Below, piece by piece: positions 13,369 through 45,998 of a stretch of DNA of 49,285 nt. Each line of letters begins with the position of its first letter. Position 1 is the first letter of the stretch. Under the pieces are notes generated by a model that saw nothing but the letters and a program-made list of their open reading frames with translations, had not been told where the DNA came from and did no database searches. A program made the position numbers and the translations under genes. Source of the DNA: an uncultured Fibrobacter sp. (lineage in GTDB: Bacteria > Fibrobacterota > Fibrobacteria > Fibrobacterales > Fibrobacteraceae); the NCBI RefSeq assembly GCF_947305105.1, contig NZ_CAMZCS010000025.1, positions 1 through 49,285 on the forward strand, written 5' to 3'.

Positions 13369-13938
13369 ATGGGAATCGTAGAAATCATCATCATCGCAAT
13401 TGTCGAAGCGATGGACTGTTTCGCAGTCGCCATCGCCACGGGGCTTTCCAAGTCGGGCATTCCTTACAGCCGGGCCATGCTCCAAGCGGTCAGTTTCGGC
13501 GTTTTCCAAGGCGTGATGACACTCCTCGGGTATTTTCTCGGCAGCTTTGCTGAACGCTGGTTCAACGCCATCGGGACTCCCATCGCCTGCACCATCCTCT
13601 GCATTTTAGGGGCGCGCATGATCTGGGGAGCCGTCCGCGGAGATACCGGCGAAGAAGAAGGTGAAAAAATCGCTGCGAAGAACCTCTCGATTACAAATAT
13701 TCTTCTCCTTTCTGTGGCCACAAGCATCGACGCTTTTGCTGTAGGCATTTCGTTCGCCTTTGTGAATGCAAACATGGTCTTTGCCACATCGGCTATCGCG
13801 TTAGCAAGCTTTGCCATGGGAGTCATCGGTTACGAAGCTGGCCGCCATGCCGCAAAAAAATTCAAGACAAAAATCCCGGAGATTATCGCCGGGATTATTC
13901 TTATTGCAATCGGTATAAAATTGGTGGTTGCCGGTTAG
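13369..13938 (+). CDS. mntP: Manganese efflux pump MntP
   Basis: The protein has 189 residues and six hydrophobic helices in two related halves. Each half carries an Asp motif: EAMDCFAVAIATG in helix 1 and ATSIDAFAVGISFAF in helix 4, as in the YebN/MntP family. The family exports Mn2+ (and has been linked to Fe) across the inner membrane. It is translated 10 bases after the aas fusion, with no room for a Mn riboswitch of its own. Its stop codon overlaps the nadE stop on the opposite strand. Confidence 0.93.
   Translation: MGIVEIIIIAIVEAMDCFAVAIATGLSKSGIPYSRAMLQAVSFGVFQGVMTLLGYFLGSFAERWFNAIGTPIACTILCILGARMIWGAVRGDTGEEEGEKIAAKNLSITNILLLSVATSIDAFAVGISFAFVNANMVFATSAIALASFAMGVIGYEAGRHAAKKFKTKIPEIIAGIILIAIGIKLVVAG
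13868..13895 (-). terminator. Candidate terminator of nadE inside mntP
   Basis: On the minus strand ATCCCGG and CCGGGAT form a 7-bp stem around a 9-base loop, followed by TTTTG. It lies 40 bases past the nadE stop codon, within mntP coding sequence. Stem and T-run are modest. Confidence 0.5.
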
Positions 13939-15896
13939 GCTTCTATCCAGTCGCTGTAGCTCGCATCGCTGGGCATGCGCCAATCGGCGCGGGGCGAGAG
14001 CGAAATCGTACCGACCTTCGGGCCATCGGGAATGCAACTGCGCTTGAACTGCTGCGTAAAGAAACGACGCACGAAAACCTTGAGAGCTTTCTGCAATTCC
14101 TCTTCGGTGTATTTGCCCGCAAAGGCGTAATTTGCGAGGAACAAAAGTTTTTGCGGCGGCGCACCGTACTTTGCAAAATGGTATAGATAAAAATCGTGGA
14201 TTTCGTAAGCGCCCAAGATGCTTTCGGTTTTCTGGGCAATCTGCCCGTGAGAATCGGCGGGCAAAAGTTCCGGCGAAACCGGCGTATCGAGGATATCGCG
14301 CAACACCGATGCAAGTTCTGCGGCCTTTTCTTCGTCGGCAGAGAATTTCCGGGCATGGTCCGCATACCAGTTCACGGCATGGCGCACGAGCGTTTTCGGA
14401 ATATCGCAATTCACGGCATACATCGACATGTGATCGGCATTGTAAGTGCTCCAGCCGAGTGCAATTTCAGAAAGGTCGCCCGTACCAATGACGATTCCGT
14501 GTTCGCTGTTTGCAATATCCATCAAGATTTGTGTGCGTTCGCGGGCCTGTACATTCTCGTAGGTCACATCCAGTTTTTCTGGATCATGGCCGATGTCGGT
14601 AAAGTGTTGCAAGCAAGCCTTACGGATGTCGACGGTCCTGAGTTCTACGCCCAAAAGTTTCGCAAGGGAGGCCGCATTGTCATGAGTGCGTTTCGTCGTG
14701 CCAAATCCGGGCATCGTCAGTGCGAGAATTTGATTGGCGGGGCGCTTTAAAAGCTTGAACGTTTCTGCAACGACGAGCAATGCAAGCGTTGAATCGAGAC
14801 CGCCCGAAAGCCCGATGACAGCGCGGGCAGAAAGCGACTCTTCGAGTCGCTTTGCAAGTCCTGCGCACTGGATATTGAATATCTCGGTGCAGGACTTGTC
14901 GCGAGTTTCGATAGATGCAGGCACAAACGGCGTCGGCGACACAAAACGGTACTTGAGGGAATCCGTCGAACGAATCCCCTCGAAACTCGCCGCCCGCGCA
15001 TACACACTCCGGCCATCGAAATCCTGGAACGAGCCTTCGCTCAAGCGCAGCATGTTCATGCGTTCCACATCCACATCGGCGTAGATGATTGCGGATTCAC
15101 GGCAGAACGGCTTGTTTTCGGCAATCATCGTCCCGTTCTCGGCAATCATCAGGTGCCCGCTAAAGACCATGTCTGTCGTGGATTCATAGACACCGGCAGA
15201 AGCGTAAACGTAAGCGGCCATGCAACGCGCCGACTGGCTCATCACCAAGTTACGGCGGTAATCGCGTTTGCCCACCAGCGCATCGCTTGCAGACAAATTC
15301 ACAATCACGTTCGCTCCCGCCAAGGCCAGTTCTCCGCTCGGAGGGACTGCCGTCCACAAATCTTCGCAGAGTTCTACGCCCACGCGGATTTCGGAACCAT
15401 TCCCCTTTACCGTAAAGAAGTTCGTCACCGGCACATAGCCAAAGCAATCCAGATGGCAACGGAGCGCACTGCCGCCTACTCCCCCACGCAGCAAGTCGCG
15501 GCCACTCGAGAAATGGCGCTTTTCGTAGAACTCGCGCTGGTTCGGCAAGTGGATCTTGGGCGTTACTGCAACGAGTTTACCCTTCTGCAAGAAGGCGCCG
15601 CAGTTGTAAAGGCCACCGAACATGCGGAGCGGGAGCCCCACCGCGATTACGACATCGCTATCGGCAAAGGCATTGGCAATTTTCTGCAAAGCTTCCAGAC
15701 TCTTCTGGAGCAGCAGTTCCTGGTGGAAAAGGTCACTACAAGTGTAACCCGTGATGCATAGTTCCGGGAACACCACAAAACAGGCACTATTCTTGACAGC
15801 CTCGGTGGCGCATCGGATAATTTCGTCCGTATTATAGGCGATATTGGCGATTTTTAACGTCGGGCAAACCGACGCAAAGCGATAAAAACCAAACAC
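13935..15896 (-). CDS. nadE: Glutamine-dependent NAD+ synthetase
   Basis: The 653-residue protein joins an N-terminal nitrilase-type glutaminase to a C-terminal NAD synthetase. The glutaminase triad is visible: Glu45 in FPELCITGYTC, Lys in KIHLPNQREFYEKRHF, and the nucleophile Cys in VGVELCEDLW. The synthetase carries the ATP loop GLSGGLDST near residue 362. It amidates nicotinic acid adenine dinucleotide using glutamine. The GTG start at 15896 overlaps the stop of the upstream activator gene (TAGTG), so translation is probably coupled. nadK and nadD are also in this window. Confidence 0.95.
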   Translation of the reverse strand: MFGFYRFASVCPTLKIANIAYNTDEIIRCATEAVKNSACFVVFPELCITGYTCSDLFHQELLLQKSLEALQKIANAFADSDVVIAVGLPLRMFGGLYNCGAFLQKGKLVAVTPKIHLPNQREFYEKRHFSSGRDLLRGGVGGSALRCHLDCFGYVPVTNFFTVKGNGSEIRVGVELCEDLWTAVPPSGELALAGANVIVNLSASDALVGKRDYRRNLVMSQSARCMAAYVYASAGVYESTTDMVFSGHLMIAENGTMIAENKPFCRESAIIYADVDVERMNMLRLSEGSFQDFDGRSVYARAASFEGIRSTDSLKYRFVSPTPFVPASIETRDKSCTEIFNIQCAGLAKRLEESLSARAVIGLSGGLDSTLALLVVAETFKLLKRPANQILALTMPGFGTTKRTHDNAASLAKLLGVELRTVDIRKACLQHFTDIGHDPEKLDVTYENVQARERTQILMDIANSEHGIVIGTGDLSEIALGWSTYNADHMSMYAVNCDIPKTLVRHAVNWYADHARKFSADEEKAAELASVLRDILDTPVSPELLPADSHGQIAQKTESILGAYEIHDFYLYHFAKYGAPPQKLLFLANYAFAGKYTEEELQKALKVFVRRFFTQQFKRSCIPDGPKVGTISLSPRADWRMPSDASYSDWIEA

Positions 15897-17422
15897 TAGT
15901 GGCCTGACTTGATTCCGAGCTTGTTCATGCGGTAGTTCATCATGCGCGGGGACACGCCCAAATCGCGGCCTGCGGCAGAAAGGTTACCGTTATTGCGTTT
16001 GATGGCTTCGGTGATGATTTCACGTTCGTAATTGTTCAACATCACCTCAAGCGGAGCCACCTTCGTATTGTGCGAACCCGCCTGGCCCGTACTCAAGCTA
16101 GTCTGCAACGACGGAGGCAAGTTATAACTGTGAACACAGTCGTCGGTTGCCGTGAGCACCGCACGTTCCATGCAGTTTTCAAGTTCGCGCACGTTGCCCG
16201 GCCAATGGTAGCTCATGAGCAAGTTGATGGCCGTCGTCGAAAGGCGTTGCACCTTCTTGTTGTAACGCAAATTCATCTTTTCGATGAAGTGTTCCGCAAG
16301 CAAGATGATGTCGGATTTGCGCTTCGCCAAGTCGGGCATGGCAATCGGGAAAATGTTCAAGCGGTAGAAAAGGTCTTCGCGGAACTTGCCCTGCGCAATC
16401 AATTCTTCCAAGTTGCGGCTTGTGGCCGCCAAAAAACGCACGTCGGAATGCAATTCCTCGTTGCTGCCCACGCGACTGAAAGTGCGTTCTTGCAAGAAGC
16501 GCAACAACTTGACCTGCGTTTGCATCGTCAGGTCGCCAATTTCGTCGAGGAAGAGCGTGCCCCCGTTGGCCGCTTCGGCACGGCCGATACGGCGGTTCAC
16601 CGCACCCGTAAAGGCGCCCTTCTCATGGCCGAAAAGCTCGCTTTCCACCAAGTTTTCGGGGAGAGCCGCACAGTTGAGCGTAATGAACGGCTTGTCCTTC
16701 CTTGCCGACAAATTCACAATGGCGCGGGCAATCATCTCTTTACCCGTACCGCTACCGCCGCGAATGAGGACGGTCGCATCGCTCGGGGCCACCTGGCGCA
16801 CCTGTTCGTAAACAATCTGCATCTCGCGGCAGTTGCCCACAAGTTCGCCCGGGTTGTTCGAAAGCATATCGCGGAGTTTGCGGTTCTCTTCGAGCATAGC
16901 CTCGCGTTCGTTATGCAGTTCAATACATTCGTTCGCTGCATCGCCCGTGATATTGGCGATGATTTCGAGCAAGGCGACATCGCGGTCCAAATCCGTCGTC
17001 CCGTCTACGGGGCGGTCAATCGAGAGCGTACCGATCACCTGGCCGTCGTGAATCAACGGCACACAAATAAAAGCGACTTGAGATTCGTAATGGCGGCTCC
17101 CCGTGCGGTTCAGGAACCTGGAATCTTTGCGCAAATCAGGAATCACATGGCTAATGCCACGTTCGGCCACATGCCCCGTAATGCCTTCGCCCATGCGATA
17201 GGAACCACGCTGTTTTTCAGATTCGTCAAGCCCGCGTGACGCCTCGATTTTAAGAGTATCGCCAAAGAGCAGCGCAAAAGTGCCGCGCAACATGCCAAGT
17301 TCGGATTCCAGAATGCCCAATACGTTTTCAAGCAATTTCTCCACATTACGTTCGTGGATAATCGCGACGCTGATTTTCTGGACCACCGAAATTTCGGATC
17401 TTACAGGAGAAGGCATGGACAT
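15896..17422 (-). CDS. NifA-like sigma54-dependent activator (GAF, AAA+, Fis-type HTH)
   Basis: The protein has 508 residues. A GAF sensor domain spans about 20-175, followed by a short coiled linker and an AAA+ domain (about 205-440). The AAA+ domain has Walker A GGSGTGKE near residue 220 (most relatives have GESGTGKE), the sigma54-contacting loop GAFTGA near 269, and Walker B GGTLFLDEIGDL. The C-terminal Fis-type helix-turn-helix is NLSAAGRDLGVSPRMMNYRMNKLGI. This order matches NifA and NorR-like activators, but no nif genes are in the window, so NifA refers only to architecture. It sits between dapL and nadE on the same strand, downstream of a predicted sigma54 promoter in front of dapF. 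There is no clear Shine-Dalgarno; the leader is made of repeats. Confidence 0.93.
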   Translation of the reverse strand: MSMPSPVRSEISVVQKISVAIIHERNVEKLLENVLGILESELGMLRGTFALLFGDTLKIEASRGLDESEKQRGSYRMGEGITGHVAERGISHVIPDLRKDSRFLNRTGSRHYESQVAFICVPLIHDGQVIGTLSIDRPVDGTTDLDRDVALLEIIANITGDAANECIELHNEREAMLEENRKLRDMLSNNPGELVGNCREMQIVYEQVRQVAPSDATVLIRGGSGTGKEMIARAIVNLSARKDKPFITLNCAALPENLVESELFGHEKGAFTGAVNRRIGRAEAANGGTLFLDEIGDLTMQTQVKLLRFLQERTFSRVGSNEELHSDVRFLAATSRNLEELIAQGKFREDLFYRLNIFPIAMPDLAKRKSDIILLAEHFIEKMNLRYNKKVQRLSTTAINLLMSYHWPGNVRELENCMERAVLTATDDCVHSYNLPPSLQTSLSTGQAGSHNTKVAPLEVMLNNYEREIITEAIKRNNGNLSAAGRDLGVSPRMMNYRMNKLGIKSGH

Positions 17423-17440: not shown

Positions 17441-17647
17441 TAGGGGTTGGGATTTAGGGGTTAGGATCTAAAGGTTAGAATCTAGGGGCTAGGATCTAGG
17501 GGCTAGGATCTAGGGGCTAGGATCTAGAGGCTAGAATCTAGGGACTAGGGGTTAGGGAGAAATTTCACGGCTCCGCCGTCTGTTACTAACGCACGAAGTG
17601 CGTGAATCTTATTCACTAGCCTCAAGTCTCTATTCTCTAGCCTCTTT
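17441..17647. repeat. Composite intergenic repeat, copy A
   Basis: The part at 17464-17547 is six head-to-tail 14-base units with consensus GGATCTAGGGGCTA, flanked by GGGGTTAG variants. Next come two small hairpins, ACGGC-TCC-GCCGT (17567-17579) and ACGCAC-GAA-GTGCGT (17589-17603), then CTAGCCTC-type sequence up to the dapL stop codon. Copy B at 18861-19106 has the same parts in the same order. The element fills the whole dapL-activator gap and so lies in the transcript leader of the activator gene. Confidence 0.85.
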
Positions 17648-18856
17648 TTACAATTTCTCCTTGATTCGCTGGAGTGCATTTTTCGTGCGTTCATAGTCAC
17701 CGAAGGCGGTCAGGCGGAAATATCCTTCGCCACAGGGGCCAAATCCACTGCCCGGGGTGCCCACCACCTCGCACGTGGAGAGCAAGCGGTCGAAGAAGTC
17801 GAAGGACTTTTCGCCATCAGCGATTTTCCACCAGATGTACGGGGCATGTTCGCCGCCGAACACCGTGTAGCCCGCAGCCGTGAGTTCCTGGCGAATGACT
17901 TTCGCGGTGCGCATGTAACCGGCAATGACGTCCTTGGTTTGCTGCCAACCGATCGGAGAATAAATCGCTTCGGCGGCTCGCTGCGTCACGTAGTTCACGC
18001 CATTGAACTTGGTACACTGGCGGCGGTTCCACATGGCATGGAGCTTCGAAAGTTCGTGCGGGATGACCGTATAGGCGCAGCGCACGCCTGTGAAGCCGGC
18101 CGTCTTGCTGAAGCTGCGGAATTCGATGGCGCAAGTACGCGCTCCCGGAATCTCGAAAATGGAATGCGGCAGCGTTTCGTCCTGGATATAGCAGTTGTAG
18201 GCGCCGTCAAACAGAATCAACGCACCCGTCTCGTTCGCAAAGTCGACAAATTTCTGTAAAGTCTCGCGACTGAGAACCGTACCCGTCGGGTTGTTCGGGC
18301 TGCACAGGTAAATGAGCTGCACCGGATTCTTGGGCAAGTCCGGCTGGAAATTGTTCTCGGCAGTTGAAGCAAGGTAGGTCACCTCGGAGAAATGGCCGTC
18401 GGCCTGGAGCGTTCCGGTACGGCCTGCCATCACGTTGGAATCCAAATAGACCGGATAAACCGGGTCCGGAATGGCAATCTTTACATTTTCTGAAAAGAGC
18501 TCCTGGATGTTGGCCACATCGCACTTGGAACCATCACTCACGAAGATGTCGTTCGGGTCCATTTCGATACCGCGGGCGGTATATTCCCCACGGACGATGG
18601 CCTCGCGCAAAAAGTCATAGCCCTGTTCGGGGCCATAGCCGCGGAAGGTGTCCTTGACGGCCATCTCGTCGACAGCCTTGTGCATGGCGCTGATGACTTC
18701 GGGGATAAGCGGAGTCGTCACGTCACCGATACCCAGGCGGATGATGTCGGCCTCGGGATGCACGCCCTGGTATTCCTTGATTTTATGGGCGATGGTGGAG
18801 AAAAGGTAGCTGCCAGGCAGGCGGTCGTAGAAGGAGTTGATGTAGGATTCGTTCAT
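17648..18856 (-). CDS. dapL: LL-diaminopimelate aminotransferase
   Basis: This 402-residue fold-type I PLP aminotransferase has the sequence style of the DapL family: RLGIGDVTTPL near the N-terminus, FRGYGPEQGY, SDGSKCDVANIQELF, PDPVYPVY, CSPNNPTGT, and the PLP lysine in FRSFSKTAGFTGVRC near residue 249. It converts tetrahydrodipicolinate and glutamate directly to LL-diaminopimelate in one step, bypassing the succinylase/acetylase route. DapF, encoded just upstream, makes the meso form for peptidoglycan and lysine. The ATG at 18856 has no Shine-Dalgarno box; it directly follows repeat copy B. Confidence 0.95.
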   Translation of the reverse strand: MNESYINSFYDRLPGSYLFSTIAHKIKEYQGVHPEADIIRLGIGDVTTPLIPEVISAMHKAVDEMAVKDTFRGYGPEQGYDFLREAIVRGEYTARGIEMDPNDIFVSDGSKCDVANIQELFSENVKIAIPDPVYPVYLDSNVMAGRTGTLQADGHFSEVTYLASTAENNFQPDLPKNPVQLIYLCSPNNPTGTVLSRETLQKFVDFANETGALILFDGAYNCYIQDETLPHSIFEIPGARTCAIEFRSFSKTAGFTGVRCAYTVIPHELSKLHAMWNRRQCTKFNGVNYVTQRAAEAIYSPIGWQQTKDVIAGYMRTAKVIRQELTAAGYTVFGGEHAPYIWWKIADGEKSFDFFDRLLSTCEVVGTPGSGFGPCGEGYFRLTAFGDYERTKNALQRIKEKL

Positions 18857-18860
18857 AAGT

Positions 18861-19106
18861 TAGGGGATAGGATCTAGAGACTAGAATCTAGGGGGTTAAT
18901 GGTTGGTGGTTAGGGGTTAGGGGTTAGAATCTAGGGGCTAGGATCTAGGGGATAGGATCTAGGGAGAAATATCACGGCTTCGCCGTCTTTTATTGACGCA
19001 CAAAGTGCGTGATTCTTATTCTCTAGTCTCCCACCTAAAGGTGGCCATGCCCACATAAGTGCTAAAGCACTAAGTGGTCAAAGGTAGCCTCTATTCTCTA
19101 GCCTCT
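18861..19106. repeat. Composite intergenic repeat, copy B
   Basis: Same parts as copy A: 14-base units of the GGATCTAGGGGCTA type mixed with GGGGTTAG and GGTTGG variants (about 18865-18966). Then come hairpins ACGGC-TTC-GCCGT (18974-18986) and ACGCAC-AAA-GTGCGT (18996-19010), and the CTCTATTCTCTAGCCTCT end. Relative to copy A it has an extra stretch with two more hairpins, CCACC-TAAA-GGTGG (19031-19044) and AGTGC-TAAA-GCACT near 19059. Stems are kept while loops differ between copies. The last bases overlap the dapF stop codon. Confidence 0.85.
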
Positions 19107-19970
19107 CATTACAATTTCTCCTTTGAAAACTTCTTGTGCGGGGCCGGTCATGAGGACGGGGCCGTCTTCTTCGTGCTTGATGTGGAGCGTTCCTCCGTCC
19201 AGTACGATGTCGGCCTCGGCGCCCACGCGGCCCGTGCGCTGGGCCGCAACGAGGGTTGCGCAGCTACCAGTGCCGCAGGCCATGGTGACGCCGCAACCCC
19301 GTTCCCAGACCCGCATGCGGATCTGGGTGGGCGCCACCACCTGCGCAAATTCAATATTGCACCTGTCGGGGAACTGCTTGTCGACCTCCAGGATGCTCCC
19401 CCACTTTTCCAGCTGGATCTTCTCGATGTCGTCGACGAAGATGACCGCATGCGGGTTGCCCATCGAGACCGTCTCGGCGGTAAAGTCGTAGCTGTCGGCG
19501 GTGAGCTTGATGGAGCCCAAGAAATTCCTCGGTTCTCCCATGTTGACGCACACGCGCCCATCGTCCAAAAGTGCAGGCTTCACCAGCCCGCTCTTGGTGT
19601 GCAAGTGAAATTCTTTTGTATCGCTTGATTTCGCAAGCCCGCGGCTGACAATGAACTTGGCTACGCAGCGAGTCGCATTCCCGCACATGGCCGCTTCTGA
19701 ACCATCCGCATTGAAGATGCGCATCTCGAAATCGATGCCGTTCGCAACCGTCTTAGACGCGGGACCCACACCAGCCTTGTCAATGACTAAGCAGCCCTCG
19801 CCATCCATCGGAGTCACGATGACGACTCCATCGGCGCCGATGCCGAAACGGCGGTCACAGAGCCGAATGACGTTTTCTGTAAAACCTTTGCCGAAATCAG
19901 GAGTTTGCCCCGGTTCCAGGAGCACGAAATCGTTACCTAACCCGGTCCATTTTGAAAATTTCATAGGCAT
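19098..19970 (-). CDS. dapF: Diaminopimelate epimerase
   Basis: The 290-residue protein has the two-domain DapF fold with both catalytic cysteines: MCGNATRC near residue 96 and ACGTGSCA near 231. GLGNDFV at the N-terminus and GNPHAV are further family motifs. It interconverts LL- and meso-diaminopimelate, completing the DapL route. The start may be the ATG at 19970 or the one at 19964 (MKFSKWTGLGNDF, closer to the usual DapF start). The last codons and the stop lie in sequence shared with repeat copy A, so the C-terminal residues may come from the repeat. It is the first gene of a minus-strand run dapF-dapL-activator-nadE. Confidence 0.95.
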   Translation of the reverse strand: MPMKFSKWTGLGNDFVLLEPGQTPDFGKGFTENVIRLCDRRFGIGADGVVIVTPMDGEGCLVIDKAGVGPASKTVANGIDFEMRIFNADGSEAAMCGNATRCVAKFIVSRGLAKSSDTKEFHLHTKSGLVKPALLDDGRVCVNMGEPRNFLGSIKLTADSYDFTAETVSMGNPHAVIFVDDIEKIQLEKWGSILEVDKQFPDRCNIEFAQVVAPTQIRMRVWERGCGVTMACGTGSCATLVAAQRTGRVGAEADIVLDGGTLHIKHEEDGPVLMTGPAQEVFKGEIVMRG

Positions 19971-20004: not shown

Positions 20005-20021
20005 AGCAAAGAACATGCCAA
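20005..20021 (-). promoter_or_regulatory. Predicted sigma54 (-24/-12) promoter of dapF
   Basis: The minus strand reads TTGGCATGTTCTTTGCT. It matches the sigma54 consensus YTGGCACG-N4-TTGCW at all positions but one (T for C), with the required GG-N10-GC spacing. Predicted transcription start is about 19994, giving a leader of roughly 24 bases before the dapF ATG. Confidence 0.75.
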
Positions 20022-20022
20022 C

Positions 20023-20039
20023 TTTACAAAAAATGTTAA
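20023..20039. promoter_or_regulatory. Imperfect palindrome next to the -24 box
   Basis: TTTACA-N5-TGTTAA has one mismatch from the two perfect palindromes further upstream. It begins 2 bases from the sigma54 -24 element, centred near -37. Confidence 0.5.
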
Positions 20040-20093
20040 ACCAGCTAAATAGCGCTAAAAACGGCCATTTTGTAAAAATAGAGGCCGCTATCA

Positions 20094-20110
20094 TTTACAA
20101 TTTATGTAAA
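20094..20110. promoter_or_regulatory. Palindromic operator or enhancer site 1
   Basis: TTTACA-ATTTA-TGTAAA is a perfect 6-bp inverted repeat with a 5-base spacer. It is centred about 108 bases upstream of the predicted sigma54 start of dapF, a normal distance for activator sites. Confidence 0.7.
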
Positions 20111-20124
20111 ACAATATCCTTTCT

Positions 20125-20141
20125 TTTACATAAACTGTAAA
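20125..20141. promoter_or_regulatory. Palindromic operator or enhancer site 2
   Basis: TTTACA-TAAAC-TGTAAA has the same arms and spacing as site 1. It is centred 31 bases from site 1, close to three helical turns, so both lie on the same face of DNA. Single TTTACA half-sites also occur at 20204-20209 and 20220-20225. Confidence 0.7.
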
Positions 20142-45676: not shown

Positions 45677-45697
45677 GTATTACATATTTTGTAATAC
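45677..45697. promoter_or_regulatory. 21-bp perfect palindrome upstream of purF
   Basis: GTATTACA-TATTT-TGTAATAC has 8-bp arms around a 5-base spacer. The core TTACA-N5-TGTAA equals that of the dapF sites. It is 302 bases upstream of the purF ATG and 190 bases upstream of the divergent gene. Confidence 0.6.
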
Positions 45698-45807: not shown

Positions 45808-45998
45808 TACCAAAATCGCCTCAAACCCGCATAAATAAAGGGATCCAGCGGTTCCAGTCCAAGAAAAAAGTATAAGGAACCCACGAGCCGAGCCCATGCC
45901 CAATTCCTATATTTTCGCGCGACCGCTTCCCTGCTTGCACCCGTCCGGGTGGGCTGTGACCTTCGAGGTAGGGGGAGCAAACATTTCAAAGAGGCGTT

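Follow-up and report, generated by a model that had tools for sequence, protein, structure and literature searches.

The dapF operon and its upstream region

The stretch of DNA analysed here (the window, 49,285 nucleotides from an uncultured Fibrobacter sp.) carries on its minus strand dapF (19098..19970), encoding diaminopimelate epimerase (NCBIfam TIGR00652, 274.9 bits, above the cut-off), followed by dapL (17648..18856), encoding LL-diaminopimelate aminotransferase (NCBIfam TIGR03542, 636 bits, above the cut-off), by the gene of a GAF-AAA(sigma54)-Fis activator and candidate nitrogen regulator (15896..17422; Pfam GAF, Sigma54_activat and HTH_8), and by nadE (13935..15896), encoding a glutamine-dependent NAD synthetase (NCBIfam NF002730). 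The first-pass annotation had described these genes as a single run, and all four gene calls were confirmed. However, whereas dapF, dapL and the activator gene follow one another directly in the relatives' loci wherever the contig allows, nadE adjoins the activator gene in only part of them. Since this adjacency varies between species, nadE was rejected as a core member of the operon and is regarded here as optional. In several relatives the dapF-dapL gap amounts to a few bases, which argues for one transcript. The dapF-dapL and dapL-activator gaps of the window, of roughly 230 bp, contain copies of an interspersed repeat made of a CCCTAGATCCTAG-type array and a small hairpin (17576-17614 and 18983-19021), while the gaps of relatives are much shorter.

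The sigma54 promoter elements noted before dapF were confirmed by direct reading of the sequence. The -24/-12 box TGGCATGTTCTTTGCT (20005..20020, minus strand) has the GG-N10-GC form of sigma54-dependent promoters, is close to TGGCAC-N5-TTGCW and differs from TGGCACG-N4-TTGCW by one mismatch. Its position places the predicted transcript start at about 19994 on the minus strand, giving a predicted dapF leader of 24 bases. Taken alone, a box of this type is weak evidence, with nine matches at up to two mismatches in the window against 8.2 expected. Upstream of it lie two exact TTTACA-N5-TGTAAA palindromes, both putative enhancers and without assigned strand, the proximal one at 20094..20110 (centre at about -108) and the distal one at 20125..20141 (centre at about -139), so that the positions and the 31-bp spacing (three helical turns) given by the earlier annotation hold. 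No exact palindrome was expected by chance in the window and none was found in 100 shuffles, and a pair of them appeared in 0 of 10,000 shuffled upstream regions. A third, weaker palindrome, TTTACAAAAAATGTTAA (20023..20039, no strand assigned, centre at about -37), had been overlooked; it adjoins the -24 element and reads TTAACA-N5-TGTAAA on the minus strand, with one mismatch.

Conservation of the sites and their recurrence at nitrogen genes

A DapF scan of genome contigs yielded 51 loci, mostly from Fibrobacter, and the scan and genome loci together provided 52 distinct dapF upstream sequences, most of them from metagenome assemblies of one genus (two genomes, G063 and G071, are not independent of the AD312 and UBA1765 loci). 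The sigma54 box was found in 50 of the 52, the exceptions being AD312 and one Selenomonadales contig. Within the set of 50 distinct Fibrobacter-group sequences having dapF as the first gene, both the box and the palindrome pair are kept in every case, with a spacing of 31 bp in 46 loci and 30 bp in four, and the third palindrome lies upstream of the box at a distance of 19 bp in 49 sequences and of 20 bp in the remaining one. Across these loci the arms of the two enhancer palindromes, twelve positions each, show about 90% conservation or higher, whereas spacers and flanks are variable. The distance from the proximal palindrome to the box falls into clusters (81, 90-94, 100-104 and 111 bp) separated by about one helical turn, with a resultant length of 0.69 at 10.5 bp for unique distances; since nearby periods score about alike and the loci are related, this phasing is supporting evidence only. 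AD312 was considered as a counter-example and rejected, because the lack of sites directly before its dapF is explained by the location of the gene inside a gltBD operon with its own promoter, which has a box and a single palindrome, mismatched at one position. Conservation among relatives and the presence of rpoN, two points on which the first-pass annotation could have been refuted, both speak for it: an rpoN gene was found here as well as in 40 of the 41 genus genomes.

The same sites occur elsewhere. Upstream of both gltB and glnN in this genome lie a sigma54 box and a palindrome having no more than one mismatch, the gltB palindrome being 30 bp from a second, weaker one; such palindromes also precede carA, carB and lysA, there without a clear box. 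Across the genus, the pattern palindrome-N73-103-box gave 46 matches in 61 genomes against none for the reversed control, and the 31 promoters read among the fetched loci lie upstream of dapF, gltB, glnN, purF and a pyrG-type (CTP-synthase) gene; glnN, purF, pyrG, carA, carB and lysA were named by eye from the sequence, not by profile search. All 26 gltB upstream regions have the box and 25 have palindromes at up to two mismatches, while box and palindromes were each found before 12 glnN orthologues, before seven of seven purF orthologues and before three pyrG-type genes. At glnK-amtB the box is strong and present in 22 upstream regions, but only 14 have palindromes; the sites there are weak or unrecognisable, this genome included. 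Thus, boxes precede the genes for glutamine synthetase (GS), GOGAT and GlnK-AmtB, and the palindromes are clear for the first two and weak for the third.

A genome-wide count of TGGCAYN5TTGCW boxes gave 20, against four for the reversed control. Palindromes accompany three of the four boxes before nitrogen genes (gltB, glnN and dapF; not glnK) and none of the 16 others. As these other boxes, including those of chaperone genes, lack palindromes, the palindromes mark the nitrogen subset. The initial idea of a regulon confined to DAP and NAD synthesis was consequently rejected: sigma54 control of the dapF operon is strongly supported, yet it is not specific to these pathways, since the sites mark gltBD, glnN, purF and pyrG-type genes and, more weakly, glnK-amtB, and therefore point to a nitrogen-assimilation regulon. 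Since the sites are shared with the main nitrogen-assimilation genes, the dapF promoter region would seem to form the self-controlled centre of a circuit for nitrogen regulation.

Several further observations were made. The strong boxes without palindromes in this genome (G000; L259, L263, L264, L265, L269, L274) precede chaperone-type genes; the genes behind palindrome-free boxes were read as groES, clpB-like, dnaK, grpE, hsp20 and htpG, as well as secA, spoVG and a gene for a sigma factor, and another activator may place the chaperone genes under sigma54 control. The purF gene of the window has no recognisable sigma54 box, unlike that of relatives, and two-mismatch palindromes lie at 45679 and 45792; the Fibro-purF RNA (RF02974) is located at 45921-45995, before purF. 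The conserved carA leader (L194:1600-1900 in this genome; also in relatives) contains stems and a terminator-like hairpin, GGCAAAAGC-TTC-TGGCTTTTGCC, followed by a T run; it had no match in Rfam up to E = 1 and is a possible undescribed attenuator or riboswitch. Finally, the T-loop of GlnK (L177:2886-3224) reads RGVVTEVNL and seemingly lacks the usual uridylylated tyrosine, and PII signalling may differ from that of enteric bacteria.

The activator, its paralogues and alternative readings

The AAA domain of the operon-encoded activator has the Walker A motif and the GAFTGA loop of sigma54 enhancer-binding proteins, and among the orthologues read the loop does not vary and the recognition helix hardly does. 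Its best NCBIfam model is NifA (TIGR01817), with 458.9 bits, below the cut-off of 528.85, whereas the NtrC model (TIGR01818) gave 319 bits, far below its cut-off of 558.6. The N-terminus holds a GAF domain and no receiver domain, which separates it from NtrC, the GAF-AAA-Fis layout is that of NifA, and the closest sequence match in the PDB is 9qq6, a Nif-specific regulatory protein. By sequence the activator is NifA-like, by its apparent role NtrC-like. In AD312, glnK-amtB, gltB-gltD-dapF-dapL-activator, glnN, the pyrG-type gene and carA lie side by side in this order, and four of these genes (glnK, gltB, glnN and the pyrG-type gene) have a box upstream. A related GAF activator is encoded directly after gltB-gltD in a different genus of the family, and no sigma54 box was found at that locus.

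Autogenous control by the activator, also suggested in the first-pass annotation, is together with sigma54 control of the operon strongly supported by the conservation of the sites, the presence of rpoN, the GAFTGA loop and the operon structure. This genome encodes, however, six proteins with a strong match to the sigma54-activator domain, and the palindromes might be read mainly by another enhancer-binding protein, in the first place a GAF-less paralogue (group p76; L168, G000:C11; L219-L236), the operon activator being a bystander or a partner. In the tree this paralogue is the sister of the activator, its recognition helix is very similar (SPRMMHYKVKRL against SPRMMNYRMNKL), and it often adjoins a second GS III gene, as seen in several genomes. 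However, its sigma54-contact loop varies (GAFTGA, GAFAGA, GAFLGA, GAFIGA; GAFAGA in this genome), whereas the operon activator keeps GAFTGA throughout, and genome G095, which retains the paralogue and lacks the activator, has one exact palindrome only, before an unrelated gene. We consider this alternative unlikely, if the most serious of those weighed. G095 (assigned to the genus, with a completeness rating of 99%) gave no match for dapF, gltB or the activator, through either real loss or an assembly gap. In the 17 genomes of the family that have no close orthologue of the activator, exact palindromes numbered 10, against 10 in the reversed control; since genomes missing the activator also miss several targets, as G095 misses gltB and dapF, the joint absence of activator and palindromes is not independent evidence.

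A second GAF paralogue (L169, L237-L253), with which the gltBD-linked proteins group in the tree, has the loop GALVGV in all Fibrobacter read, and GAFTGA in sister genera, where its gene can follow gltBD. The Fibrobacter form is therefore probably unable to contact sigma54, a contact that this paralogue has apparently lost in the genus.

Alternatively, the palindromes could be operators of an ordinary repressor, unlinked to the sigma54 box. This would accommodate carA, carB and lysA, where no clear box accompanies the palindromes, and a sigma70-like match that overlaps the distal palindrome (20141-20113), but this match is no better than chance, lacks conservation in its second hexamer and was rejected as a promoter. 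The phased, enhancer-like distance that separates palindrome pairs from sigma54 boxes, with 46 matches against none in the control, makes the repressor very improbable. Chance or inherited similarity without function, which could be invoked because the loci are mostly from a single genus and of common ancestry, has a negligible probability, as it is already contradicted by the conserved arms amid variable spacers, the fixed 19-bp and 30-31-bp spacings, the repetition of the layout before unrelated nitrogen genes and the absence of such a palindrome pair from the 10,000 shuffles.

A proposed circuit and its relation to known systems

We consider it quite probable that dapF-dapL-activator forms the autogenous core operon of an Ntr-like nitrogen regulon dependent on sigma54, that the promoter described here drives this operon and that the activator binds the palindromes. 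In this model, sigma54-RNA polymerase would wait at the box (20005-20020) and the GAF-AAA-Fis activator, once bound at about -108 and -139, would form an ATPase ring, loop over and open the promoter, raising its own level. Excess activator would probably hinder the polymerase by occupying the weak third palindrome, close to the -24 element, and so cap the loop. The active protein would also switch on gltBD (GOGAT), glnN (GS III) and glnK-amtB, and in some species purF and the pyrG-type gene. The signal that we infer is a shortage of glutamine or ammonia, perhaps conveyed to the GAF domain by 2-oxoglutarate or GlnK. NadE, CarA, PurF, PyrG and GOGAT use glutamine as donor and DapL uses glutamate, and raising these enzymes when glutamine is short would be a reasonable logic.

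Fibrobacter is a main rumen cellulose degrader. Searches of an open-access library returned no account of its nitrogen control, nor of sigma54 control of its dap genes, although absence there is not proof of novelty. The S85 genome paper has one mention of sigma54, for a response regulator near a cellulase, and a comparative study tied sigma54 in general terms to the synthesis of cell-wall precursors, without naming Fibrobacter or dapF. The circuit thus appears not to have been described in this phylum. The present results name a regulator, a predicted binding site and a list of targets for Fibrobacter nitrogen control, and they make testable the question of why sigma54 should control an essential cell-wall operon: with no promoter for dapF other than this one, loss of rpoN or of the activator should be lethal or lead to a DAP requirement.

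On balance, we favour, with somewhat less assurance than the core operon itself, the view that Fibrobacter has an Ntr system of its own, in which a one-component, NifA-like GAF activator would replace NtrB/NtrC, its gene being tied to a DAP operon with a self-activating, self-limiting, glnALG-like promoter and its regulon including glutamine-using enzymes of nucleotide synthesis. Enzymes of wall, nucleotide and ammonia assimilation pathways would then be set together by nitrogen status.

The NtrC box is a 17-bp 6-5-6 palindrome, and the NtrC enhancer sites at glnAp2 lie near -140 and -108. At this promoter of the E. coli glnALG operon, weaker promoter-near sites have been proposed to act as a governor beside the strong enhancer sites (PMC3870243). 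The predicted dapF arrangement shares with the enteric system the use of sigma54, two strong enhancer sites and a weaker promoter-near one, an operon encoding its own activator, and putative targets that include glutamine synthetase and glnK-amtB. The Fibrobacter site is also a 17-bp 6-5-6 palindrome, but of another sequence (TTTACA-N5-TGTAAA); the activator has a GAF domain and no receiver, DAP genes take the place of glnA in the core operon, the GS is of type III, and the set extends to purF and pyrG-type genes. Such a glnALG-like layout with a different type of activator would represent a convergent circuit design. The catalogued Fibro-purF motif (RF02974), found before Fibrobacter purF, a regulon member in several relatives, is an RNA leader and hence a layer of control separate from the sigma54 promoter. 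NifA sites have the form TGT-N10-ACA. With NifA the activator shares the GAF-AAA-Fis layout, the best NCBIfam model and the best PDB match (9qq6); it scores, however, below the NifA cut-off, and its putative sites are TTTACA-N5-TGTAAA and lie, among the targets found, before assimilation genes.
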